Positions 6,308-29,045 of a stretch of DNA of 35,328 nt are shown here, piece by piece. The translations under genes were made by a program, and so were the position numbers. The notes beneath the pieces are model-generated. The model was not told the origin of the DNA, did not search any database, and saw only the letters and a list, made by a program, of their open reading frames with translations. The stretch comes from a virus. The stretch spans positions 1 to 35,328 of IMG/VR virus record IMGVR_UViG_3300049595_004353. One strand, given 5' to 3'. Position 1 is the first letter of the stretch. Each line of letters begins with the position of its first letter.

Positions 6308-6685
6308 GGTGTTAGCTAGCTCTAAGCTTTCGTTGGAGAGTGGGAGAAACAAGTGCTTTAGAGCATTGGGGATTCCCATCTCCTCCAATATTGCTTCACC
6401 GTTACCGTCACCGTCACCGTTACCGTAACCGTCACCGTAACCGTCACCGTCACCGTCACCGTTACCGGTACCGTAACCGTAACCGGTACCGTCACCGTCA
6501 CCGTCACCGTTACCGTCACCGTGACCGTTACCGTAACCTTCACCTTTGCCGTGACCGTTACCGTAACCGTAACCGTTACCGTAACCGTTACCGTTACCGT
6601 AACCGTCACCGTTACCGGCACCGTAACTATTGCCTAGTTCACGCCCAGTAACGGCAATGTGCGCGCAAGGATTAAGTACGGTCAC
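6227..6685 (-). CDS. Gly-X dipeptide-repeat protein, paralogue 1 of 3
   Basis: The 152-residue protein is the first of the tandem set in transcription order. Its N-terminus differs from the other two (MTVLNPCAHIAVTGRELGNS). About 80 residues of alternating Gly with N/D/Y/H/K/T follow, then the shared C-terminal domain with small changes (NESLELANTLLNC). The start is a GTG sharing four bases (GTGA) with the stop of the VWA gene, so translation is probably coupled to it. Its end, ELRRDVCLR, is identical to paralogue 2 and carries the AGGAGA ribosome site for it. Confidence 0.7.
   Translation of the reverse strand: MTVLNPCAHIAVTGRELGNSYGAGNGDGYGNGNGYGNGYGYGNGHGKGEGYGNGHGDGNGDGDGDGTGYGYGTGNGDGDGDGYGDGYGNGDGDGNGEAILEEMGIPNALKHLFLPLSNESLELANTLLNCNTSLEYESILGILELRRDVCLR
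6397..6632. repeat. GGTNAC hexamer array 3
   Basis: About 39 ACCGTN hexamers on the plus strand encode the Gly-X segment of paralogue 1. Variation is almost confined to the fourth base of the minus-strand unit GGTNAC, giving Asn, Asp, Tyr or His; rare units give Thr, Lys or Glu. Confidence 0.9.
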
Positions 6686-8370
6686 TTAAGTCTTATTCCT
6701 TTTCTAAGTAAGCGGTCAAGCACTTTTAACGGTTCTTCGGTAAAGTCTTCCAATCGTTGGATTACTACGCTGTTAGGATAGTACTGTCTAACGTCGGTAC
6801 TCTGTATACCAAAAGCGACGATCTCAATGCCGTACTCAGAAGCAGCGCTTACTACGTCCAGCAAGTGTTGCTGACATCGGCCCACATGTCCGTGCCCAGG
6901 ATAGGGCATACCATCATTGAACACAAAAAGTATCTTGCGTTTCTCTTTGCGTAACAACAATCGACGAATACCGTGCTTCACAGATTCTGCGTCTAGAGTG
7001 TTACTTCTGATGTTAGTAGACGCCTCCGATAGACGCAAGGCTCCTTTTTCCCAGGGCTCATTAAAATCTCTGTAGTATCTAATCCACAGACTATTCCAAC
7101 GTGCGTAGGGCACACAGTCAGCTGGAATGCTGGTAGGTTGGTCTGTGGAATATGCGTACGCAGCGAATGGAATACGCAAAGAGTCCAACACATCGCCCAG
7201 CACTATAGCTGCGGTTCCGGCTAAGTCCAGCTTCCTGCCAACCATGGACCCGGAATGGTCGATAGCCAGGCACACAGCTGTGTCTATGTGTAGCCTGTTA
7301 GCTAGCTGCTTGTACACTGCGTTGTCGGTACCTAATACAGACCTGTATAGTTTTCTAGAATCAACTTTGCCTTCTTCTTTGCTGCCTACCCAACGCCGTC
7401 TTGCTTGTGCACGCAAAGAGTTAACTAACCTAGTTCGCAGTACATTTGTTACGGCTTTATGCGTGTCTCTTATCCGTTGAAGTTTTTGTCCATTCAAAGC
7501 AACTGCAACGTCAGGAAAAGGTTTTACAGTGTCATCTGCTGTAGAGAACACTATGTACGTTTTGTCACTGTCTGCATCGTGCTTATATCCTGTTGCGTTT
7601 TTTCCGCTCTTGGATACAAGAGCAGCTGCTTCCTGTCCTAGTAGTTCACCTAACTGGTCTTGGGATACTGGTTGCGAAGAAGAAGGCGTACCTCCCGCTT
7701 CTATGGTTGCTGTTTGTTTGGATTTCTGCTTCTCTCTCTTTTTTCTGTCTTCCTCTTCCTCTTCTGCGTACTCTTTTAGCACTTCGAACATGCGAAACCC
7801 TGCCTCAATTGCTAAATCGGTAGATACTATGTTAGCTACAGGGCCTACTGCATCTACGCATTTATCAACCAACAGCTTTGTCTGCTCGTCTACTGTGTGC
7901 ATCCAGAAATCTGTGTATTTGCCATAGGCAACAAAATTCCCGTAAGCAGTACAAGCCCGCATAAATTGATTAATGTTTTGCCAATTTTGGCGTATTTTTG
8001 GCACCATCCAGTCGTTGCTAGCCGCTAGGTTTGTGACGGAGCCGGGAAACAAGCGACACACCGCAGCCTCCACCCGATTGTCTTCTATTACATTGATGCA
8101 ATGAAATTGTGTTGCAGTGGGAGTTGGTGTGCGCTCTTTTATTGCCTTGAAATCAGTGAATAATACGTGGGCGGTTTCATGGTCCAAGAACCCGTGCACG
8201 GCAGCCAGAAGCTCGCTAGGAGCGTCACTAGGGAGCGTAGGCAAGTAGATGGTATTGCCGTCAGTCTTGCACTCTCCCGATTTCCACACAACGCGGATAC
8301 CGAATTGCAGGGAGAGAAGGCGCGCAGTGCGCTCGATAGATGATTCGGCTAACCGAACATTACTTCTCAT
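6682..8370 (-). CDS. CobT-like VWA-domain protein with HExxH motif
   Basis: The 562-residue protein resembles phage proteins labelled cobaltochelatase CobT. Residues 59-72 hold GFLDHETAHVLF (H64, E65, H68), an HExxH metal site, with EDNRVE at about 96-101 as a possible further ligand. A Lys/Glu-rich linker spans 200-235. The C-terminal von Willebrand A domain has a complete MIDAS: D371-x-S373-x-S375 (DHSGSM), T458 and D486 (FNDGMP). Real CobT works with the AAA+ subunit CobS in cobalt chelation; phage pairs lack the rest of that pathway and more likely act as a MoxR/VWA-type remodelling machine. The CobS-like partner is encoded at 9205-10275. The start at 8370 has GGAAG upstream. Confidence 0.8.
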   Translation of the reverse strand: MRSNVRLAESSIERTARLLSLQFGIRVVWKSGECKTDGNTIYLPTLPSDAPSELLAAVHGFLDHETAHVLFTDFKAIKERTPTPTATQFHCINVIEDNRVEAAVCRLFPGSVTNLAASNDWMVPKIRQNWQNINQFMRACTAYGNFVAYGKYTDFWMHTVDEQTKLLVDKCVDAVGPVANIVSTDLAIEAGFRMFEVLKEYAEEEEEDRKKREKQKSKQTATIEAGGTPSSSQPVSQDQLGELLGQEAAALVSKSGKNATGYKHDADSDKTYIVFSTADDTVKPFPDVAVALNGQKLQRIRDTHKAVTNVLRTRLVNSLRAQARRRWVGSKEEGKVDSRKLYRSVLGTDNAVYKQLANRLHIDTAVCLAIDHSGSMVGRKLDLAGTAAIVLGDVLDSLRIPFAAYAYSTDQPTSIPADCVPYARWNSLWIRYYRDFNEPWEKGALRLSEASTNIRSNTLDAESVKHGIRRLLLRKEKRKILFVFNDGMPYPGHGHVGRCQQHLLDVVSAASEYGIEIVAFGIQSTDVRQYYPNSVVIQRLEDFTEEPLKVLDRLLRKGIRLK

Positions 8371-9019: not shown

Positions 9020-9208
9020 TTACCAACCAACCAAGTGTTTGTCACTCTCGTATTCGGTAAGCAAGCTCCACAAGAGCCTGGCTAGGCTTTCATCTGCGTG
9101 CATATAGCTACTGTAGAAGCACACCCAACATGAATTTTGGCTAATTACACCGGCCTTCTCTAGGTAAAGTGTGTGGCCGAATAGCCGTAGTCTGTAGGGA
9201 GCAGTCAT
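9020..9208 (-). CDS. small hypothetical protein (62 residues)
   Basis: The frame starts with an ATG overlapping the stop of the AAA+ gene (ATGA) and has GGGAG upstream, and it ends just before the terminator, so it looks like a genuine last gene of the transcript. The sequence (MTAPYRLRLFGHTLYLEKAG ... SLARLLWSLLTEYESD) shows two cysteines (CWVC) and a helical end but no known family. Confidence 0.55.
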   Translation of the reverse strand: MTAPYRLRLFGHTLYLEKAGVISQNSCWVCFYSSYMHADESLARLLWSLLTEYESDKHLVGW

Positions 9209-10275
9209 GTACGCTTGCTCCCTAGTAAGTACTTCTTGTCGTCTTTCTCAGGAAGCTTAAAGTGGCGCTGAATTAGGTTGGCGACAGCCAAAGCGTCGCT
9301 AGGCGGAAGCTTGTCTAGGAAGCTGTACCTAGCCGACTTCATCGGGAAAGGTACGCGAGTAAGTTTTTCAAGCCAATTAATTCCATCGCGAGTAGTAAGG
9401 GGCACAGAAACAGTGCCTGCCTTGAACGCTTCTCGCACAGCAGATAGAACCTTGACTACGGGAGAAATAAAAGGCTGCACATGTACAGCGGGGAACATGC
9501 TCTCCAGCACCTTTACTTCGCTTGCAGGGGAAATATAGTCAATGGCTATTACTGTCTTCCATCTATTCAAGAAAGAAAAATTCTGTACGTTAGTACCCGC
9601 TACGTAGAGACCTGAATCATCTCCCATACCTGTTGTGTTTGCGGTTCCCACTATGCAATTCTGTGGATGAAGTTCAAAAATCTGGTTTGTTTCATGCATG
9701 AGGAAACGCAAGTCTTCGCTAACAGCTCTCTGTAAAACGAAAGCAGTTTCTGGCGGGCACGCGTCTATCTCGTCGAACAGCACTATGGTTCCGGGCTCTG
9801 TAAACGCCAGGGGCACTAAACCATAACGGAACAGCATGTTGCCGTTTGCTATTTTCCAGTCACCAAGCAAGTCACTACGGGACAGATGGCCGTCGAAATT
9901 GATTTGAACTACGTTGTAATTCAGGCGAGCTGCTACTTGGTTTACCAGGGCTGTTTTACCAGTTCCTGATTGACCAACTAGATACGTAGTGTCTCTTGAC
10001 GTTATTGCCTGAAGTAGCTGTACTAGCTCTTCTTTTGGAAAGACATAGTTTGGATTCAAACTAGGAGTCAGAACTCCAGGAGTTGCAAAGCCAGTAACCG
10101 CGATATCTAAGTAAACTGTATTTCCCTTCGAGTCTTTTACAGACTCTCCCTGGCTCATCTTTACGCCAGTATCAATCTTAAACGTATCTCTTACGGAGAA
10201 TGACTTAGTCTCTCTATTAGCTCTGTGTGGAACAACAGAAATAGCAGCATGAGAGAGCTGTGTGTGGATGTCCAT
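9205..10275 (-). CDS. CobS/MoxR-like AAA+ ATPase
   Basis: The 356-residue protein has one AAA+ module. Walker A is GQSGTGKT (101-108), Walker B is IVLFDEID (164-171), sensor 1 is IVGTANT (208-214), and R238 in FLNRWKT is a candidate arginine finger. The order and the LLGDWK segment after the second strand match the MoxR/CobS group. These ATPases act as hexamers with VWA-domain partners; the CobT-like gene at 6682-8370 is the obvious one. I chose the ATG at 10275, which overlaps the upstream stop by one base (TAATG). A GTG at 10290 would add five residues. The protein target is unknown. Confidence 0.85.
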   Translation of the reverse strand: MDIHTQLSHAAISVVPHRANRETKSFSVRDTFKIDTGVKMSQGESVKDSKGNTVYLDIAVTGFATPGVLTPSLNPNYVFPKEELVQLLQAITSRDTTYLVGQSGTGKTALVNQVAARLNYNVVQINFDGHLSRSDLLGDWKIANGNMLFRYGLVPLAFTEPGTIVLFDEIDACPPETAFVLQRAVSEDLRFLMHETNQIFELHPQNCIVGTANTTGMGDDSGLYVAGTNVQNFSFLNRWKTVIAIDYISPASEVKVLESMFPAVHVQPFISPVVKVLSAVREAFKAGTVSVPLTTRDGINWLEKLTRVPFPMKSARYSFLDKLPPSDALAVANLIQRHFKLPEKDDKKYLLGSKRT

Positions 10276-10718
10276 TATAGTATGTCCCACTCCGTTTGTT
10301 CAACTATCGTCGGGGTCTCTAGGGTCTTGCGAGTTCGTACGTATTGGGTTTGTCCGTTGAGGAAAGACAGCTCGGTACCTGTAGGCACAGCTACGAGTGC
10401 ACCTGACAAGACTATAGGTAAAGTGTCACGCTCGTCAAGGTGGCGAGAGTGCACCTCCACATTATGTTCACGCAACAGCGTGCGAATACGACTAACTGCA
10501 GCTTTTATGCTGGGCATCTCTAAGTCGTACTCCAGGAGTTTAACGTTCGAAGGCAGTATCCAACCAGCAGGAAAGTTGTACTTGTTACCGTGAGACAGTA
10601 GTACAACCAACTTGTTTGCCTTTGCCAGGGAATCTACTACTTCGTGATGCTTTTCATTCTCAGGAAGTACGGTTGGGTCCTTGACAAACACGATGCGGTT
10701 TAAAACGTGATCTGCCAT
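10275..10718 (-). CDS. hypothetical protein between primase and AAA+ ATPase
   Basis: A 147-residue protein of unknown family beginning MADHVLNRIVFVKDPTVLPE. The ATG at 10718 is preferred because GGAG lies eight bases upstream; an in-frame ATG at 10754 is deeper inside the primase gene. The middle (NKLVVLLSHGNKYNFPAGWI, then IKAAVSRIRTLLREHN) suggests alternating strands and helices. No catalytic motif was recognised. It overlaps the primase by 19 bases, so the genes are probably co-translated. Confidence 0.65.
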   Translation of the reverse strand: MADHVLNRIVFVKDPTVLPENEKHHEVVDSLAKANKLVVLLSHGNKYNFPAGWILPSNVKLLEYDLEMPSIKAAVSRIRTLLREHNVEVHSRHLDERDTLPIVLSGALVAVPTGTELSFLNGQTQYVRTRKTLETPTIVEQTEWDIL

Positions 10719-14652: not shown

Positions 14653-15059
14653 CGCAGCGATACCTCTTCGGTAGTGCGATAATTTCTGTTGTGGCTACCG
14701 ATCGCTATTTGCGTAGGTCTGTACGGATTCTGAGGCTTTCCAGGAAAGTTTACTTTAGACAGCCTGCGGAGTCTAGACAACGCCAAATACGGAATGTCCA
14801 CCGGCAGGGGAGACGACACTGCCATGGCGTAGCGGTTCATTTCTTGAACCTCCACACTCAGAATGCCTTGTGTAACGTCGTTGTGAATAAGAAGACCAGT
14901 GAACTTGCTTAGGTCGTCCAGGCTATATCTAGCTGGTGTACTAGGTACATAACGAAAAGGCATGCCTGTAGCTGCGTTTCGGTCTTTTCGCAACGCAAAC
15001 CCCAACTTCATCCAGCCGAGAAGTTCATCTCCTGGGCGGAGGTCCGTTACTTTCAGCAT
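14643..15059 (-). CDS. hypothetical protein downstream of the UvsW-like helicase
   Basis: A 138-residue protein with no recognised domain; it begins MLKVTDLRPGDELLGWMKLG and ends TEEVSLRWT. It has mixed strand and helix character, Pro-rich stretches and no membrane segment. It overlaps the helicase by 35 bases with only a weak GGA-containing ribosome site, and the J-domain gene by 10. The tight packing supports a real gene in the replication transcript. Confidence 0.6.
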   Translation of the reverse strand: MLKVTDLRPGDELLGWMKLGFALRKDRNAATGMPFRYVPSTPARYSLDDLSKFTGLLIHNDVTQGILSVEVQEMNRYAMAVSSPLPVDIPYLALSRLRRLSKVNFPGKPQNPYRPTQIAIGSHNRNYRTTEEVSLRWT

Positions 15060-18000
15060 CTTGCGTCCAAATCTTTCTTACTAGTGCTACATCAGGCCCA
15101 CTCTGAATCAGAGGAAAACACTCTTCCTTCTTGTAGTCTTCCCAACGCTCCAAACTATGCTTGAGCAGGTAATCATTGGTGAAGTTGGCAAACTCTACTG
15201 CAATTAGTTTGCTGCCTCGCAAGCCTCTACCCAGGCGCTGCATGGTCTTGATCCGGCTCTTACGGGATCCGGCTAAAATGAGAGCATCAATTGTAGGCAC
15301 GTCCACGCCTTCATCAAGGATTGTACTTGCCACTAGTACTGGCAACTTTCGCTCACCGAAGTCTTTTAGCGCATTGGCACGAACTTCCGTAGCTTCTTCA
15401 CCATGGATAAACAAGTGCGGGATGAATACATCTCCAGTAGCTGTCCACAAAGCCTGGTCGATTGCTTTGCCATGCTCAATCTGCTCACACAGAATCAGCG
15501 TACTCAACCCAACCTCTTGAAAAACCTTTGTCCATTCAACGATGAGATTGAGTGCATTAGGATTGTCCACTACCCCTTGTTTGTAGGCAGACGCATACGC
15601 CAGTTTCTTGGGTAGAACAGGCGCGGTTATCTTCGAGAAGATAACATACGTTTTAGCGCTGATACCGTTCTCAACCAAGAACTTGTTAGGGATGTCCACA
15701 ATGACAGGACCAATTGTCGCAAGAAGGCGTAAGTTAGCGCCATCGGTACGGTCCATAGGAGTGCCACTAAGGCCGTACCTGTAGTTAGCAGGACATGCAG
15801 TACAAACATCATACCAGGTTTCACTACCTGCATGATGGCAGTTATGCGTGAGCAGTCCATTCGCAACAAACGTATGGTCTTCCTCTACTTCGAACTCTAC
15901 GGTGTTCAAGGACAGTCCTGTGTCAACTTTCGTAACTAGTACGGGACGAGCGTTTACACTACTGGCGATAGCGGTCACCTCTGAATCGAACACAGACGGA
16001 AGTCTGCCGTGTCTCTTAGAAGCCAACTGCTTTCTTGGCAAGAAGCCAGGGCACAAACTGGAAAACTCAGTTGTGGACACACTGGGGACTACCACTCTGT
16101 ATCCAGGATTCTGTTGTGACTTCTTAGGGCAGACTTGCAGTCTAGCGGCAATATTATTGTCCCGCAAAAATCGCTGTAGGGCAACCATCAACGCATAGCA
16201 AGTGGTTTGTATACCACAACGATTGCTCTTAAGGTCAACAAAGCCCTTAGCGTCGAACAACCCAGAAATATAAGACCGCATGTTAGGATGCAGAGGCAAA
16301 TGCTTATACTTGTTCTGCCGAACGCTAAAGCCCAAAGCAGCCAAGTCCAACAGGAAAGCATCTGAGGAAACGGTAAGTGTGTGACCACCTCGGGCATTTG
16401 TGGACACGCACGTTGAGGAATCTGGATATGCCTTAGTAAGCAAAGAGGGCACTACTGTTTCCCAGAACTCGAAGTCTTTCCTGTAGGAAAAGCGGACCTT
16501 GTTCGTGCTGTGCCAATGTCCACCACCAGCAAACAAGCCTGCCAAATATGCGGAAAGGCTGAAATCAGCCAAGGGCCTAGAGGGAGACATGCGTTCTAGC
16601 AGAACATCGTCAACACTAACGCTATCTGCGTAGATATAGGTAAGCTTGCCGTTACGAACAACGGCTATTGGGTGCTCCACAGAGCACAACAAAGAGAGCC
16701 CATCACTTGCGTGCAGTTTGACGCCCTCTCTTGTGTGGGTGGTAACTCGCGTGACCGGCTTCATTCCGGAATGAGTTACAACTACATCTCCTACCTTGAT
16801 ATCCTTGGCGTAGGAATACCCAGATTCCGTGGAAATCACAGAGTATTCGTCCACACATTCGTCCACGAAAAGAACTTCGCAACCCTTGAGAAGGTCCTGG
16901 CACGACTGTTGTTCAAAACGAGACTCAAGCGTGTCAACGGTGGCGATTGTAACCCAGGTTCCTGGATTCCAAACTCCATCTCCGACGATTCCAATTTCCT
17001 CTTCCGTTGCTCCCAAGCGCTTCATGAAGCGTGCACGGGACTGATGCAGGAGTTCCCTGGTGGTGACCATGAAAATAGTAGGCATTTCAAGATAGCGTGT
17101 AATTGCGCACGCCACCTCGGTGTTGTGTGTTACTGTGAAATCACCCAACAGGAATCTACCGTCTCCATCTAGAGTGAACCCCGCGTAGTCACCTACACCA
17201 AGCGGCTCAACGCGAAAACCAGTGTTCAGGCGATAAGGTTGTTTGCGCTTCTTAGCTTGCTTTCGAGGAAGACGCGTAGGGATCTTGTGTAGGTCGCCGT
17301 AAATGTGAAGCCTGTGGTAAGTGACACCGTTCACGACCTTCGGCTTCACATTCACTCGAAAGCCTAGCGAACGAGCAAGATCCCGAATACCCTCAGCGTA
17401 AGTAGCTCGTACTTGCGTGATCTCAAACCACTTAGAGTTCACCTCCAAGTGGCCGTCAGTATCCAACAAGCCTGCAAGAAACAGTAGGCGCACACGCTCA
17501 CTTCCGCGAAGACAAGACAGTGGCAGAGTGGAAGCATCTCCGCACACCCTACGCATTTCCGTGAGTAGAGGATTCGTCTCCCCACGAGGAGTAACAAGAG
17601 CATAGGTATCTGCTCGTCCTGAAGACTCGGATGCATACTTGATGAGATTCAACGACCAAGACTTGCAGGTGTCGGAAAGCAGGTCCACGATCTCTGAATC
17701 CATCATGGTAACTTGCACGCCCTGCTTAAGGTCCTTGCGCCCGTCTCCAAACCACACACCCAAGAAATACGGGTCAATCGAAGGATCCGGAATAGCCGGA
17801 TAGTTAACGCCCGTGCTGAACTGTTTCAACAGTCTGCGACGATTCGTAGACAACTTAAAGTACTCGGGAAGCTCAATATCTACAACTTCGTTGGCGTGCT
17901 TACCGGTACGTCTAGAGTCACGCAGTGTGAGAACGTGAACATCGTTGCAAATCCAGGGGTCACCTAGATTAGGTACAATCCTGTACATAGGCCCGGTGCC

Positions 18001-18543
18001 CGTACAGGTACTCTGAACGGCGCGCGGAAGCGAATCTGGACCCATCAACAGATTGCCCACGCGAATGTTCTTCGCGGCGGCTACACTCCCGTCGAACAGC
18101 ATCACTGGAGTGTCAGGATGCAAACACTTACCTGCGTTTGTAGCCATGCGAAGGACACCACGCTTGGCTTCAACTGCCTTCTTTGCGGCCTCCAGTTGGT
18201 ACGCGTACTTGCCATCCATTCGCACGCCCACAAGATCAAAGGATCCACTCCTGGGCTGTGGAGAAGTGCGATGATCGGTAACGATTACATTGGCTCCAGC
18301 TAGCTCGCACGCTTCTTTCACCAAGCTTAGCAGACCTGTGGGAAACGTCTCAGACGTAAGACGGAACAGGTGCTTACGTCCATCCCACACGCCCTTACGA
18401 TATGACTGGGAAAACTGCGCACCCTCTACTGGATACGAAGTGACCATACGTACAGCAGACTTTGGGTAGGGTCCGCTGATCTTGGAAGTGGGACCATACA
18501 CGTCGATGTGTACGTCTGCGGTCACTGACGACTCCTCACTCAT
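15025..18543 (-). CDS. uvsW: UvsW-like SF2 helicase carrying two inteins
   Basis: The 1172-residue precursor contains three extein parts: residues 1-139, 475-562 and 902-1172. Joined they make a 498-residue helicase of the size of T4 UvsW. Extein motifs are the Q-like AYQLEAAKKAV (114-124), motif I ATNAGK|TEVA, motif II VLFVDE|CHH (DECHH after splicing), motif III GLSGTPMDRT (about 924-933), and motifs V and VI (STILDEGVDVP and QRLGRGLR). It would act on branched DNA, R-loops and recombination intermediates, as UvsW does when converting origin-dependent to recombination-dependent replication. Both inteins sit inside ATPase motifs, so the precursor should be inactive until both are removed. 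It overlaps the upstream gene by eight bases (ATGAGTGA). Confidence 0.92.
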   Translation of the reverse strand: MSEESSVTADVHIDVYGPTSKISGPYPKSAVRMVTSYPVEGAQFSQSYRKGVWDGRKHLFRLTSETFPTGLLSLVKEACELAGANVIVTDHRTSPQPRSGSFDLVGVRMDGKYAYQLEAAKKAVEAKRGVLRMATNAGKCLHPDTPVMLFDGSVAAAKNIRVGNLLMGPDSLPRAVQSTCTGTGPMYRIVPNLGDPWICNDVHVLTLRDSRRTGKHANEVVDIELPEYFKLSTNRRRLLKQFSTGVNYPAIPDPSIDPYFLGVWFGDGRKDLKQGVQVTMMDSEIVDLLSDTCKSWSLNLIKYASESSGRADTYALVTPRGETNPLLTEMRRVCGDASTLPLSCLRGSERVRLLFLAGLLDTDGHLEVNSKWFEITQVRATYAEGIRDLARSLGFRVNVKPKVVNGVTYHRLHIYGDLHKIPTRLPRKQAKKRKQPYRLNTGFRVEPLGVGDYAGFTLDGDGRFLLGDFTVTHNTEVACAITRYLEMPTIFMVTTRELLHQSRARFMKRLGATEEEIGIVGDGVWNPGTWVTIATVDTLESRFEQQSCQDLLKGCEVLFVDECVDEYSVISTESGYSYAKDIKVGDVVVTHSGMKPVTRVTTHTREGVKLHASDGLSLLCSVEHPIAVVRNGKLTYIYADSVSVDDVLLERMSPSRPLADFSLSAYLAGLFAGGGHWHSTNKVRFSYRKDFEFWETVVPSLLTKAYPDSSTCVSTNARGGHTLTVSSDAFLLDLAALGFSVRQNKYKHLPLHPNMRSYISGLFDAKGFVDLKSNRCGIQTTCYALMVALQRFLRDNNIAARLQVCPKKSQQNPGYRVVVPSVSTTEFSSLCPGFLPRKQLASKRHGRLPSVFDSEVTAIASSVNARPVLVTKVDTGLSLNTVEFEVEEDHTFVANGLLTHNCHHAGSETWYDVCTACPANYRYGLSGTPMDRTDGANLRLLATIGPVIVDIPNKFLVENGISAKTYVIFSKITAPVLPKKLAYASAYKQGVVDNPNALNLIVEWTKVFQEVGLSTLILCEQIEHGKAIDQALWTATGDVFIPHLFIHGEEATEVRANALKDFGERKLPVLVASTILDEGVDVPTIDALILAGSRKSRIKTMQRLGRGLRGSKLIAVEFANFTNDYLLKHSLERWEDYKKEECFPLIQSGPDVALVRKIWTQDAESNGPPPRR
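15841..16857 (-). other. intein 2, in the DExH motif, with a degraded homing endonuclease
   Basis: Residues C563 to N901 of the helicase precursor (339 residues). It starts CVDEYSVISTESGYSYA with a later SVEHP block B histidine, and ends DHTFVANGLLTHN followed by Cys902, a standard class 1 layout (Cys1, His-Asn end, Cys +1). It splits DE|CHH. Two LAGLIDADG-like segments are visible, LAGLFAGGG (667-675) and ISGLFDAKG (759-767), but the catalytic acidic position is Gly674 and Lys766. Splicing residues look intact; DNA cleavage is probably lost. Confidence 0.9.
17122..18126 (-). other. intein 1, in the Walker A motif, with intact LAGLIDADG motifs
   Basis: Residues C140 to N474 of the helicase precursor (335 residues). 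It begins CLHPDTPVMLFDGSVAA, has NDVHVL as block B histidine, and ends FTLDGDGRFLLGDFTVTHN followed by Thr475, giving the canonical His-Asn end and Thr +1. It interrupts AGK|T of Walker A. The endonuclease motifs LGVWFGDG (261-268) and LAGLLDTDG (356-364) keep the acidic residues (D267, D363), so homing activity is plausible. Confidence 0.93.
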
Positions 18544-22493: not shown

Positions 22494-25400
22494 TCATGTA
22501 AGCTTGTTGAAGTTGGTCAACGCAGCTGCTCCGTACGTCCAGCCACCAGCAGCTACAGCAGGGTTAATCGCGCCAGCCGTAACAGAGTCTCCAAAGGAGT
22601 TAGAATGTGCTTGTCCGTCTTGTATGTTAGCGGTCAGTATATTTAACTCGTAGTTAGACGCACCACCACTAGGACGAACTATATTGCCTACCACGTTAAA
22701 CTGACGCCAGGTTCCAGCGAGCGTGCTGAGAAGCTCGATAGAACTCCCGGTAGCGAGAGAAGGCTCCATCCAGTCAACGAGATTATTGAGTACGGAGACT
22801 ACTCTACAATCACGTATCAATATTGCAGGTCTTCCCGCTGAAACAGATCCAGTTTTTGCGCCAACCAGAGTGTTAGAGCACACAACTACACCACGAGTCT
22901 GTACTGGGTTGTTGTGTCCCTCAACTAAGATACCACTATGGCCCGCAGCCAACGTAGTTTCGCGTATTAAATTGTCTGAAATGCTAAGACCAGAAGAGTT
23001 ACCACCCAGATAAGCGTAAACACCAACCCAACCAATATTGGAGTTCATTTCTATGCTGTTGTTCTGTACCTGTACACCTGCGATGGATGCAGCCGTTGTA
23101 GTGTCCCTTGTAATGATAATGCCGTGTATGCCCCCTGTGGAGGAGCTAACAATTCGATTACCGATGAGCTGTATACCTGCACAGGAGTCGGAGATTAGCA
23201 CAATGTGGCCAGACGCCAGTGCACCCGTTTCTCCAGCCTGAGAACAGATGTTGTTGTTAACCAGGATAGATGACTGCTGTCCGCGCAGCTTGATTAGCGC
23301 ACCGTAGAGGTTTACGGCTGCTCCAGACGCAGACGCTGCTCTGAATAGCCGATTGTGCCCAACTACCACGTTCTGGCATCCATTGAGCAATATGCTCACT
23401 CCTTCTCCGGAAGCATTATTTGTAGCAGTTTGTACAATCTGATTAGAAGACACGGATCCGCGCGATACTCCGCTGAAGTAAACACCGTAAGCACTTGTAG
23501 ATGCTCCAGCCAAACCAGTACCAACAATCGAGTTGCCTACTACCTCGAACTCAATGCCTGTAGCAGCCGAGGGGTTGAAGTATACACCAGCTGAATACGT
23601 TCCTGTGCCTTGAATGTCTCGGAATTTATTGTTCTTTACCCTGACACTACCTGCCGATGGAGCAGTAGCTATTGAGCTGAATAAGACGCCGGATGCTTGT
23701 GTTCCTGTAAACAACCAAAATATGTTGTTCTCTATGGTAATGTCTACACACTGAAGTGTGTCCCAGGTAGCGTCAACGCCCACACGAACACCTGCTCCAA
23801 CGTTGTTAAAGTTGGTAAAGTAATTCCTGGTTAGCTGAATATGACTGGCTGTGGGCGTAGAAAACAGGCGTAAACCGTACGCTACTACGCTAGAACCACC
23901 ATTGTTGCCAAAGTTGTCAGTGATCATATAATCTCCGCTAATCATGTTGTTAGCGGACGATCCAATGCGCACCATCTCAGCCAAACGGAAGCAGTTATTG
24001 CCCGTGAAGCGAATAGGCTTAGGAGTTGATAAGCCGTCTGACGACAAACCGATTACGTAAGCACCAGTTGGAACTTCAATGTCGTTTCGCTCGACGCGGA
24101 GGTTAGACACTGTGCCAGCGGCGTTAGCGGATACTATGGAACCAGGATTTGCCTCAGTAAGCGCACCAACTCCAGTAACCTGGATGTAGCTATCGGCTAC
24201 AGCAAAGTTAGAAAGGTTTCCAGTGCTAGAGAACAAAAATACGGCGCCATTTACAGCCAACGATGTGGCTGTTATGTAGCAACGCGAGAAGCACACTTCT
24301 GTGATTACTTGGGTAGAAGTACTAGCAAACACAGACGAAGCCACAGTGATGTTACACCGAGAAACATTCAGGCTTTGAACTACGTCCGATACACCCCCAG
24401 CTAAGAACCCTATCCCTGAGAAGATGAAGCAGTCGTTGAGCGCTACTCCATTCATCGGGCAAGAGAAAGCTACCAAAGAGGATACGAACGAACAATCGTT
24501 GAATGAGGAAAGCGATAGCGTCCCTCCTCCAAGAGAAGACACGCAGGCAACTGCCGTAGAAGGAGAAAAAGATGTCCGGGACGCACGTATAGCGCCTGTG
24601 ACTGCTCCGTTTATTCTCACTGAAGTAGTAATCACACAGTATTCAATCGTAGTTGTGACGCTACCTGCTACGTCAATTGCGGCAGCCAGTCCCCCAGCTG
24701 CCTTGGAGATTGTCATATTCCTGAAAGCACAGGAAACGGTGACACTGAACGCAGGACCCGCTGCTGCGTTGTTAGTTATGTTTACTACGTTGTAGCCCTC
24801 ACCTACAAAGGTGACTTGCTTACCAACAACTACAGTGGATGCGAATGTGTATGTACCGCCTTTGACAAATACGGTACCTCCACCAGCAGGCAATGCGTTA
24901 ATTGCAGCTATGAACGCAGCCTCCGTGGTGCCGTTAAAGTCACCAAACGTAGTGCTTCCATTGCCGATGGATACTGTGTTTGTCTTCGCTCCCTGAATAG
25001 AGCCAGCGCGGTCAAAATACCTTGGTCTAGCAGAAAAGGCGGAAGGAGGCGCGGAGGATACTATGTCTGGCCTAGGGTGACCAAACTTCATCTCTCTGAG
25101 CTGTGCGGAGAGATAGTCTATTTGGTCTTTTAGCGACCTGAGATTCAGGTCATCTCTTGCTCCAAATGTTTCTTTGGATTGAAGGAGACCGGAACCTCTA
25201 AGCTCATTAGCCTGCCACATTCGTTGTGCTGGATCTGGATGTCCAGGAGTGGCAAGCAGAGGGTCAAGCGTGGGGTCGGACGGGTCGGTTCGCTCGCGAT
25301 AGATATTCGCTGTGCCGCTAGTTACACGTACTATTGCACCTGCTTGATGGGTAGATGCTGTGGCTACACTTAGCGTCAAGATTCCGTTGATACGGTCAAC

Positions 25401-26120
25401 AGAAGTCACCGTACGAGCTTCCGGAACAGCACTGCCTACGTCAACGGTAACGTTAAACGGCGTAGTAGCGGGAAAGATCCTAGCGTCAACAACACGTAGG
25501 TTTACTGTACCTATAGCAGTATCGGCTTCAAGCACAGACGCGGCCGTAACCAAGGTCAGTCCGGGGTTTGCGCCACCCGTAATCTGGTTCGAAGCATCTG
25601 TGCGGAAGACGCCAACAGGTACTCGTATGGAATTAGGGTTTGAACTTTGTTGGAATCCTGTGGTTGACACAGGAGTCACAACACGCCAGTCCGGTGTTAT
25701 CCTGGTTGCTACGTTCAGGGTAAATTCACTACCGTTGGGGTCTGGAGGATTTGGTATCGTGGGGTCCCAAAAGTACCTAGCGTCAGTGTCGCTTACAACT
25801 TCCGCGAACTCAATCTCGACATAGAAGTTTAAGTTAGACCCAGTAAGCGTGATCGACCTGGCATCGTTTGGTACTTCTTCGTTGTTTATCAGTCTGCCGT
25901 CACGGTCTACTGCGTTTCCGTTAAAGATGGTGATTAAACCAGGGTTCGCAGTCTGGTCCTCCACACGAATACGAAAGCCATCCAGGATCCTAGCTCTGCG
26001 ATCCGTGAGTTCTCTTTCTATGAAAAACTTCTGGGTGTCCTGCGTATAAGTATTGGCGCCCAATACGTAATCAGGTAAGTCCAGACGCTCGCCAGGATGT
26101 GCTTTTAACGCCTTCGGCAT
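22494..26120 (-). CDS. beta-helix tailspike / receptor-binding protein
   Basis: The 1208-residue protein has an N-terminal virion-binding part (1-350; beta-rich, with EVEFAE-like strands and a copy of the recurring tail module near 193-262). A parallel beta-helix of the pectate-lyase type follows from about 390: TTEAAFIAAINALPAGGGTV, VFVKGGTYTFASTVVVGKQV, then many Asn-ladder turns (ENNIFW, VKNNKF, VVGNSIV, VSSNQIV, VQNNSIE). Such spikes bind and often cleave surface polysaccharide. It lies downstream of baseplate genes, as expected for an adsorption protein. Catalytic residues cannot be assigned by eye. Confidence 0.85.
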   Translation of the reverse strand: MPKALKAHPGERLDLPDYVLGANTYTQDTQKFFIERELTDRRARILDGFRIRVEDQTANPGLITIFNGNAVDRDGRLINNEEVPNDARSITLTGSNLNFYVEIEFAEVVSDTDARYFWDPTIPNPPDPNGSEFTLNVATRITPDWRVVTPVSTTGFQQSSNPNSIRVPVGVFRTDASNQITGGANPGLTLVTAASVLEADTAIGTVNLRVVDARIFPATTPFNVTVDVGSAVPEARTVTSVDRINGILTLSVATASTHQAGAIVRVTSGTANIYRERTDPSDPTLDPLLATPGHPDPAQRMWQANELRGSGLLQSKETFGARDDLNLRSLKDQIDYLSAQLREMKFGHPRPDIVSSAPPSAFSARPRYFDRAGSIQGAKTNTVSIGNGSTTFGDFNGTTEAAFIAAINALPAGGGTVFVKGGTYTFASTVVVGKQVTFVGEGYNVVNITNNAAAGPAFSVTVSCAFRNMTISKAAGGLAAAIDVAGSVTTTIEYCVITTSVRINGAVTGAIRASRTSFSPSTAVACVSSLGGGTLSLSSFNDCSFVSSLVAFSCPMNGVALNDCFIFSGIGFLAGGVSDVVQSLNVSRCNITVASSVFASTSTQVITEVCFSRCYITATSLAVNGAVFLFSSTGNLSNFAVADSYIQVTGVGALTEANPGSIVSANAAGTVSNLRVERNDIEVPTGAYVIGLSSDGLSTPKPIRFTGNNCFRLAEMVRIGSSANNMISGDYMITDNFGNNGGSSVVAYGLRLFSTPTASHIQLTRNYFTNFNNVGAGVRVGVDATWDTLQCVDITIENNIFWLFTGTQASGVLFSSIATAPSAGSVRVKNNKFRDIQGTGTYSAGVYFNPSAATGIEFEVVGNSIVGTGLAGASTSAYGVYFSGVSRGSVSSNQIVQTATNNASGEGVSILLNGCQNVVVGHNRLFRAASASGAAVNLYGALIKLRGQQSSILVNNNICSQAGETGALASGHIVLISDSCAGIQLIGNRIVSSSTGGIHGIIITRDTTTAASIAGVQVQNNSIEMNSNIGWVGVYAYLGGNSSGLSISDNLIRETTLAAGHSGILVEGHNNPVQTRGVVVCSNTLVGAKTGSVSAGRPAILIRDCRVVSVLNNLVDWMEPSLATGSSIELLSTLAGTWRQFNVVGNIVRPSGGASNYELNILTANIQDGQAHSNSFGDSVTAGAINPAVAAGGWTYGAAALTNFNKLT

Positions 26121-26132
26121 TCTGCGTTCCTC

Positions 26133-29045
26133 TCATCGCTTAGATATAAACGTGACCAATACGCCAGCAGCGCGTACTAGGTCTATCACGAACTTAATAC
26201 GGTCTTCGATTGTAATGGGAAGACGTAGTGGGAAGTCAAAGCCATTTATTCGCGGGTAGTTAGTACCTACCGTAGGTGCAATAAACTCGGCCGACTGGTG
26301 GGTATTGTTGACCAATAGGTAGGGAGATGTGGAAAGAGTGTTACCTGACTTACTAGTATAGCTGAAGTTTTCTTCCTGACCAGGGGTGAACTCTACGGCA
26401 GTGCCTGTTGGGTACGACCATTTTGTACCGTGAGATATGGTTAGCTGATTCAACCCCGTATTATTATTTGTTACATGTACAAGCTCTTCGTACAAAGGAC
26501 CGAGTCCCTTTCCTAGGCGTACGATGTAAGGGTATCCCGTAGTTGGGAAGTCAGAAGTATCGCTACACTGAATCACAGTAGCAGCGATTGCAGTCAGAGC
26601 AGACGTAGCACTACGCGCGGCACCCACAGCATTGCCAAAGTTAGCTACAGCGGTGCCACCATCGACAGAGAAGTCAGTTCCTGCAAGGCTTAACGAGACA
26701 GAAGTATACAGAGGACGAACAGTGTCGGCTGACGTTGATTGCGTTTCAGGTGCGTAAAAAGCTAGCCTGTCTGCAGCTGCAATGATACCTAGGTGATCGT
26801 CTCCTGTGGATGGAGCCACGCGTACCAAATCGGACAGTAACACAATGCGGTCGCCTAGTGCATGTGGCGCAGTTGTACCAAATGCCAGGTTAAGCACTAA
26901 GCCTGGTCCGGTGCTGATTACTTCTACGACTTCTACGACTGTGGGGCTCGTCCAAATCGCCACTCTGTATGTCCCAGCGTTTGGGAAAGCATTTGCTGGA
27001 GCCAGTGGTCCGCTCAAAGAAGCAACAGGTATGCTAGTGGAACCGACAGGCAATACTGCAGTGTTTACAGTAGTATAGGTGCGGCTCTTCAATGATACCT
27101 GCTGTACTGCAAGAGTCTCCCTGTTACCACTATTTTCGCCCACAAGAATGTTGTATGGCGTAGCTAGCGGAAAAGCAGAGCCGTCTTCAAGTTCAAGCAC
27201 AGAGCTACCTGCCAAGCGGTCAACGCTGAGGTTTGTTGGACCAGACAAATAGGTGGTAGCTGAGTTAGCTGCTACAGTCTGCTGCTTATGCACATGAGAA
27301 TACAAATCCCAAACATAGGGACCTGCCCATACGTCCGCTACCGACCAGGTATCACCGGACATGTAGTTCGCGTAAAAACTCAAAGTGTCGCCGAATAGAA
27401 TTGGGCTTGTAAGAGGTCTTGCTAGCTTGAGTATGTTTTCTTCCCTAACCAGCATTCCGCGTACAACAGCACTAGGCAAAGCAGAAACGCCTAGAGTAAA
27501 CGCGTCTACTACCGTGTAAGAGACCAGCGTTACTCCATCAATTCTCAAAGTTCCAGTAGAAGGAAACAGTGCTGTGCTGTTGACTTTTATGGAAGTGGCA
27601 CCCGCTGCAGCCTCTGTGCTGATCCACGCGTGCGGATTATAATACGTATACCGTATGTTTCCTGGCGTATGCTCTAGTACGCCAACTAATGCAAACGAGT
27701 TGGTACTAACTACAGACGTGTCAGTACCGCCTGGGTAGAATGGAGCGTTTGCTGTTGAACTGCCTGCCCCTGCAGCGCGTATGTAGCTGGCGGATCGCAG
27801 GTCGTTCTCAAGTGCATCTGTTGGCAGTAGAATCTCAACGTGGTCAGCGTCTGACTGTATAACGTCCCAGCCTCCAGACTTAACCTGGACCTGTGCGATA
27901 CAAACAGTTGTGCTGGGAATTAGTACAGAGAACTTAGTGTTGGCAGCAAATACCTGCAAGTTTGGCAATTCCTGCTTCATTAGCACTGAGTTGTCTGATT
28001 CCTGCGCTCGGATGTACTCAAAGTTAGCTATGAGAACAAACGTATCACCAGCTACGGGTGAAGCAGGTAAGGTGTTGAACAGAAAGAAGGTGGTAGTGTT
28101 GTTGCTAGCCACGTATCCTACACGTCCAGCTAGAGCTGCGGTTACGTTTCCATTAAATCTAATAGTGAATCCGCTATAGGGTGAAGTAGTAGGAAGGGGA
28201 CCCGCAGTAACTACTGTTGTAGTTGTTCCTCCAGTGGCGGTAAGAGCGCCTGATACGTCTCCTGAAAGTATTCCTTTCTCTAGTGGAAGCGTTGACACGC
28301 TGTCCATGTTTAAGTAATACGCGTTAGACTGTGATGCGGTCGCCGCTAGTAACGCATAGGCTCCAAGAGAGGAGTTCAATCCTGGGTGCGCGATAGGTGC
28401 TCCGTTTGTCAAAGAAATAAAACGAGCAGGAGCACTTGCAGCCGACTGGAATTCGTCAACATACTCATACTGCGTTCCCCTACCCACCACCACTGGATAA
28501 GTCGTGCCGACTGCAGTGGGGTCGGGAAACCCGGAGGTGTCGCACACAGTCCTAGTCACCTCCAAGGCGTCAGTCGGACCTATCACACCCGTTTCCCATT
28601 CCGCATTTACGGCTGGGTGGTTAAACACTAGAGGAGTGTCAAAGTACACTGTATTCGTGTACCGGTCGATGTAGCTATACCTTACTGTTTCCTCAGTCGG
28701 CAAGCCCTCGTCAATGACCATGGTGCCAACCTGTGGAAACTGCTTCGTGCCTACCAAAACAGCGTGTTTGGCGCCAGAGAGCACGGAGTTGGCGAAAGAA
28801 GAGCATTGGGTTACTTTAGGCCCCAACAGAATAGTTAGGATATCTTCAAACTTGGTCTTAACCTGTTTGTACTGTAGCGATATTACCTTAACTAGCGCAC
28901 GCCAAGTATCATCGTCGAACCCAAATGGAGGTCGCTGGATACCTAAGTTTGAGGAAACTACGTTTAAGTACTTTCCATCTGCGAAATCAAGACAAAGCTG
29001 ATCCCGAAGCTCACCAATTGCAGACTGTGAAACAGAAGTGGTCAT
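26133..29045 (-). CDS. large baseplate or tail structural protein
   Basis: A 970-residue protein. The N-terminal 75 residues are helical (ELRDQLCLDFADGKYLNVVS), and the rest is beta-rich with repeated short modules (near 81-145, 482-533, 612-650, 669-737 and 815-887) of the kind FPxxGxYxIxVGxG. It overlaps the baseplate J gene by four bases (ATGA) and precedes the tailspike, so it may connect the baseplate wedge with the spike. No named family was recognised with certainty. Confidence 0.7.
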   Translation of the reverse strand: MTTSVSQSAIGELRDQLCLDFADGKYLNVVSSNLGIQRPPFGFDDDTWRALVKVISLQYKQVKTKFEDILTILLGPKVTQCSSFANSVLSGAKHAVLVGTKQFPQVGTMVIDEGLPTEETVRYSYIDRYTNTVYFDTPLVFNHPAVNAEWETGVIGPTDALEVTRTVCDTSGFPDPTAVGTTYPVVVGRGTQYEYVDEFQSAASAPARFISLTNGAPIAHPGLNSSLGAYALLAATASQSNAYYLNMDSVSTLPLEKGILSGDVSGALTATGGTTTTVVTAGPLPTTSPYSGFTIRFNGNVTAALAGRVGYVASNNTTTFFLFNTLPASPVAGDTFVLIANFEYIRAQESDNSVLMKQELPNLQVFAANTKFSVLIPSTTVCIAQVQVKSGGWDVIQSDADHVEILLPTDALENDLRSASYIRAAGAGSSTANAPFYPGGTDTSVVSTNSFALVGVLEHTPGNIRYTYYNPHAWISTEAAAGATSIKVNSTALFPSTGTLRIDGVTLVSYTVVDAFTLGVSALPSAVVRGMLVREENILKLARPLTSPILFGDTLSFYANYMSGDTWSVADVWAGPYVWDLYSHVHKQQTVAANSATTYLSGPTNLSVDRLAGSSVLELEDGSAFPLATPYNILVGENSGNRETLAVQQVSLKSRTYTTVNTAVLPVGSTSIPVASLSGPLAPANAFPNAGTYRVAIWTSPTVVEVVEVISTGPGLVLNLAFGTTAPHALGDRIVLLSDLVRVAPSTGDDHLGIIAAADRLAFYAPETQSTSADTVRPLYTSVSLSLAGTDFSVDGGTAVANFGNAVGAARSATSALTAIAATVIQCSDTSDFPTTGYPYIVRLGKGLGPLYEELVHVTNNNTGLNQLTISHGTKWSYPTGTAVEFTPGQEENFSYTSKSGNTLSTSPYLLVNNTHQSAEFIAPTVGTNYPRINGFDFPLRLPITIEDRIKFVIDLVRAAGVLVTFISKR

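Follow-up and report, generated by a model that had tools for sequence, protein, structure and literature searches.

Two inteins at the Walker A and DExH motifs of a phage UvsW-like helicase

The helicase gene and its two inteins

The window, by which we mean the whole 35,328-nucleotide stretch analysed here (IMG/VR record IMGVR_UViG_3300049595_004353), comes from a tailed phage with a syntenic group of relatives in IMG/VR; no near relative turned up in a DNA search of isolated phages. A minus-strand open reading frame of 1172 codons and a stop, read from position 18543 down to 15025, encodes a helicase precursor with the following features.

15025..18543, minus strand: gene of the UvsW-like SF2 helicase precursor with two inteins (translation; Pfam ResIII, Helicase_C and near-threshold UvsW_N; T4 UvsW match)
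18127..18543, minus strand: N-extein, residues 1-139, ending with the ATNAGK of motif I (translation, orthologue comparison)
17122..18126, minus strand: intein 1, residues 140-474, 335 residues, class 1, with a LAGLIDADG endonuclease, at Walker A AGK/T (Hom_end_hint and Hom_end; PI-SceI alignment; empty site in orthologue L009; intein of relative L007)
17740..17766, minus strand: intein 1 LAGLIDADG motif 1, FLGVWFGDG, catalytic Asp kept (aligned with PI-SceI LLGLWIGDG)
17452..17478, minus strand: intein 1 LAGLIDADG motif 2, LAGLLDTDG, catalytic Asp kept (aligned with PI-SceI LAGLIDSDG)
16858..17121, minus strand: middle extein, residues 475-562, from the Thr of motif I to the DE of motif II (orthologue comparison)
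15841..16857, minus strand: intein 2, residues 563-901, 339 residues, class 1, with a degenerate LAGLIDADG endonuclease, at motif II DE/CHH (LAGLIDADG_3 and intein_Cterm; Nitunavirus allele; empty site in L009)
16519..16545, minus strand: intein 2 LAGLIDADG motif 1, LAGLFAGGG, Gly in the catalytic acid position (aligned with the Nitunavirus allele)
16243..16269, minus strand: intein 2 LAGLIDADG motif 2, ISGLFDAKG, Lys in the catalytic acid position (aligned with the Nitunavirus allele)
15025..15840, minus strand: C-extein, residues 902-1172 and stop, starting with the Cys of DECHH (translation, orthologue comparison)

The spliced helicase would comprise 498 residues. This figure, the gene boundaries and both intein lengths, all given in a preliminary description of this DNA, match the translation. 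The GC content of the inteins (49-52%) and of the exteins (48-54%) is not usefully different, and an argument for foreign origin from base composition was dropped.

The spliced protein matches T4 UvsW (2oca_A) with E=6.3e-15 over residues 34-443, that is, across the N-terminal and both RecA domains, the extent we used to define the UvsW family. Matches to XPB/Rad25 are stronger, but span one RecA domain. The UvsW_N profile (PF21241) scores 23.0 bits on the spliced window protein against a cut-off of 25.3 and passes it, at 26.4 bits, on the intein-free orthologue L009. The 2oca match thus bears out the initial naming of the host protein, for which "UvsW-like" SF2 helicase appears fair.

We assigned inteins to class 1 by an N-terminal Cys, Ser or Thr, a TxxH or NxxH in block B, a terminal His-Asn pair and a Cys, Ser or Thr at position +1. 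Intein 1, whose junctions read RMATNAGK/CLHPDT and TVTHN/TEVACA, carries all of these residues (Cys1, block B NDVH, His-Asn and Thr+1). It is matched by Pfam Hom_end_hint, above cut-off, and by Hom_end, and aligns with PI-SceI (E=9.2e-15) over both catalytic Asp motifs. We took a pair of LAGLIDADG motifs that each hold a catalytic acid as the signature of an active endonuclease, and intein 1 has this pair at the sequence level. Its endonuclease is probably active and able to home into empty uvsW alleles. Intein 1 is part of a wide family found at GK/T in phage helicases and in further phage proteins labelled terminases and a portal protein (352 records).

The junctions of intein 2 are LFVDE/CVDEYS and LLTHN/CHHAGS, and its class 1 splice-site residues are present (Cys1, SVEH, His-Asn and Cys+1). 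Pfam LAGLIDADG_3 matches within it and NCBIfam intein_Cterm, above cut-off, at its end; Pfam Intein_splicing scores below its cut-off. Its closest relative is an allelic intein, also at DE/CHH, in a Nitunavirus/Siophivirus helicase (E=6.6e-10). The endonuclease reading frame is kept, and both catalytic acids are missing; the same Gly and Lys substitutions occur in a near-identical copy (L006). We propose that intein 2 is probably splicing-competent, with an endonuclease that is probably dead because Gly and Lys replace both catalytic acids. For the Pyrococcus horikoshii VMA intein, a dead endonuclease with splicing retained is documented (PMC8966425). A profile built from intein 2 and the Nitunavirus allele had no match among PDB sequences. 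Among PDB structures, a model of intein 2 matches LAGLIDADG enzymes and inteins; we set the structure models aside as evidence, as their confidence is too low (mean pLDDT 45 for intein 2, pLDDT 33 for the full precursor).

Empty alleles and movement of intein 1

Orthologues from the same phage group, recognized in IMG/VR by a common gene order, present three occupancy states. Four of them (L008, L009, L011, L013) are uninterrupted at both sites and read ATNGGKTEIAC and VDECHHAGS, two (L007, L012) carry intein 1 without intein 2, and in one (L010) site 1 holds the end of an intein, with site 2 empty. The same two-intein frame recurs unchanged in two IMG/VR metagenome contigs (L014, L015) and as near-identical partial copies in two others (L006, L004), and intein 2 was detected in this one phage population only. 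The orthologues with both sites empty or with intein 1 alone are 73-75% identical to the window helicase, and their junctions agree exactly with ours.

Comparison of these alleles indicates that both inserts are optional and precisely placed, because the orthologues include exact empty sites, intein 1-only alleles and two-intein alleles. The empty alleles and the profile matches also uphold what the preliminary description had read from the letters, namely an insert of 335 residues between AGK and T of motif I and one of 339 residues between DE and CHH of motif II, each beginning with Cys. The helicase would work without its inteins, since orthologues in the same group at 73% identity have none.

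Exteins and inteins group the relatives differently. By its exteins, L007 goes with L010 (88% identity), whereas by intein 1 it goes with the window (85% identity over the part they share, against 55% for L010); this conflict is based on ~110 residues, as L010 retains just the last 112 residues of its intein. The AU test rejected the swapped topologies both for the intein (p=0.007) and for the extein (p=0.002). These tests indicate that intein 1 was transferred horizontally between lineages, because they reject congruence of extein and intein either way.

The L007 intein is 75-76% identical to intein 1 of the window. No dN/dS estimate could be had between the window and L007, synonymous sites being saturated. 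The window and L006 differ by five non-synonymous changes, all five in the inteins and none in the exteins. The sister phage bearing L007 has a further intein in an apparent large terminase, named by inspection only (L135, 181-2991).

Intein sites in other helicases

Examination of other phage UvsW genes for both insertion sites, as the preliminary description had proposed, identified 53 distinct UvsW-like open reading frames, 50 of which span both sites; these counts come from pattern-seeded searches and do not represent a random sample. Nine of the 50 are occupied: six at site 1 only, two at site 2 only and one at both, with the remaining 41 empty. Site 1 is used by two unrelated intein types, one of ~330 residues with Hom_end_hint and one of 420-425 residues (L083, L109, L110 and Staphylococcus phage Quidividi). 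Outside UvsW, one helicase (L050) has an intein at site 2 only. We conclude from these comparisons that separate invasions of each site have taken place in other phage helicases, the P-loop GK/T and the motif II DE/CHH being recurrent landing sites. Every occupied allele has Cys directly after site 2; in empty alleles this residue varies among Cys, Ala, Val and Tyr. A need for Cys+1 would produce such a pattern, which parallels that of resistant MCM-d alleles (PMC10643990). In Staphylococcus phage Alsa_3, the annotation divides a UvsW-type gene that has an intein at site 1 (L019, 1402-4402) into three open reading frames; the gene is apparently broken within the intein and again within the helicase.

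Several known systems resemble the window helicase. Quidividi UvsW (MH321490; Twort and phiIPLA-C1C are similar), annotated as an intein-containing UvsW precursor, likewise has an intein in Walker A, between GGK and T. It differs in having a single intein, of 420 residues and of another lineage, which can hardly be aligned with intein 1. The Nitunavirus/Siophivirus DNA helicase (phiNIT1 orf959b, fHSPT3) belongs to the same helicase family and holds a homologue of intein 2 at DE/CHH (25% identity over ~260 residues), but this single intein has 369 residues and keeps its LAGLIDADG acids, Asp and Glu.

The Vibrio phages PS65A.1 and 13VV501A encode an SF2 helicase with two inteins at the equivalent GK/T and DE/CHH positions, so the pair is rare but not unique. 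At site 1, the PS65A.1 intein is a homologue of intein 1, with 35% identity. The Vibrio protein differs in being of a non-UvsW family, with a longer C-terminal part that includes Cys-x2-Cys pairs; its site 2 inteins are mini-inteins of 143-150 residues, and the site 1 intein of 13VV501A is a mini-intein as well. The inteins of both Vibrio genes (L016 in PS65A.1, L018 in 13VV501A) are unannotated, and the products are labelled just as hypothetical or P-loop proteins.

Among cellular helicases, Mycobacterium smegmatis DnaB also has two inteins (DnaBi1 and DnaBi2), one of them in the P-loop, and a homing endonuclease in just one of the two (PMC6195587). It differs from the window helicase in being the replicative DnaB, in that DnaBi1 is a class 3 mini-intein and the second site is a DNA-binding loop, and in that redox control was demonstrated experimentally (PMC6195587). 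The haloarchaeal MCM-a and MCM-d inteins are, like ours, neighbours in one helicase, with alleles carrying none, one or both and with limits on splicing set by the +1 residue, whereas their host is a cellular MCM helicase and both endonucleases are active (PMC10643990).

Inteins at both sites, two-intein helicases and mixtures of active and inactive endonucleases were thus each known separately already. A literature search that did not cover most subscription journals found no paper on two inteins in a UvsW. What our analysis contributes is a clear example of two inteins in a phage recombination helicase, together with close relatives that have both inteins, intein 1 only or none.

Origin, persistence and role of the inteins

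We consider it very likely that two unrelated class 1 inteins entered the UvsW-like helicase gene at different times, that intein 1 is mobile and intein 2 can no longer home, and that the pair has no regulatory role. Both look like ordinary selfish elements and not like an inbuilt timer. The gene would first yield an inactive 1172-residue precursor, from which each intein would excise itself by an acyl shift at Cys1, transfer to Thr+1 (intein 1) or Cys+1 (intein 2) and cyclization of its terminal Asn. Intein 1 would persist by homing into empty uvsW alleles. Intein 2 would persist since any inexact loss would destroy the helicase, exact removal alone being tolerated.

It is possible, although rather unlikely, that intein 2 also spreads despite its lack of a working endonuclease. 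In a mixed infection, intein 1 would cut the P-loop site, 264 bp from site 2, and repair of this break across both sites would carry intein 2 along, which would add to the explanation above. The close spacing of the empty sites, set by the middle extein, and the combination of one intein that looks active with one that looks inactive are consistent with such co-homing. However, intein 2 was confined to one phage population in our searches, L007 has intein 1 and not intein 2, and co-homing is inefficient in Haloferax, where both endonucleases are active. Co-homing in double-intein genes where one intein has no endonuclease has been named as an open question (PMC10643990), and the pair described here offers a test of whether such an intein can hitch-hike on its neighbour.

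A regulatory function had been suggested in the preliminary description, in which the need to splice delays UvsW activity after translation. Its premise, that the unspliced precursor would be unable to use ATP normally, is supported, as the inserts interrupt both the P-loop and motif II. For P. horikoshii RadA, work cited in PMC6195587 reports that ATPase function is disrupted by a P-loop intein. In its fuller form, the inteins would act as a post-translational delay or a redox switch that times the change from origin-dependent to recombination-dependent replication. Both inserts begin with Cys, splicing of one of the two M. smegmatis DnaB inteins is redox-controlled (PMC6195587), T4 UvsW acts late (PMC3016281), and intein 2 is still present though homing has apparently been lost.

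The proposed delay nevertheless found no support. Orthologues of the same group at 73% identity are intein-free, occupancy is sporadic (41 of the 50 spanning frames are empty), and intein 1 is horizontally mobile. The timing of T4 UvsW is transcriptional, set by a late promoter (PMC3016281), and a homing-dead intein can persist without benefit because only its precise deletion is tolerated. We therefore regard a timing role as very improbable and infer that the inteins have none; their position in ATPase motifs is by itself no ground for reading regulation into them. That the inserts are in-frame helicase domains or assembly artefacts is contradicted by the exact empty alleles and the recurrence of the same frame in independent contigs, and the intein profiles, Cys1 and the His-Asn junctions also speak against it.

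Elsewhere in the window, two very large open reading frames of 1208 and 970 residues (22494-26120 and 26133-29045, both minus strand) adjoin baseplate J and tail tube initiator genes; neither had a match in a Pfam search, and the 1208-residue frame had none in PHROGs. The phage replication region also contains a cobaltochelatase-type pair encoding a CobS-like AAA ATPase and a CobT-like VWA protein (9205-10290 and 6682-8370, both minus strand).
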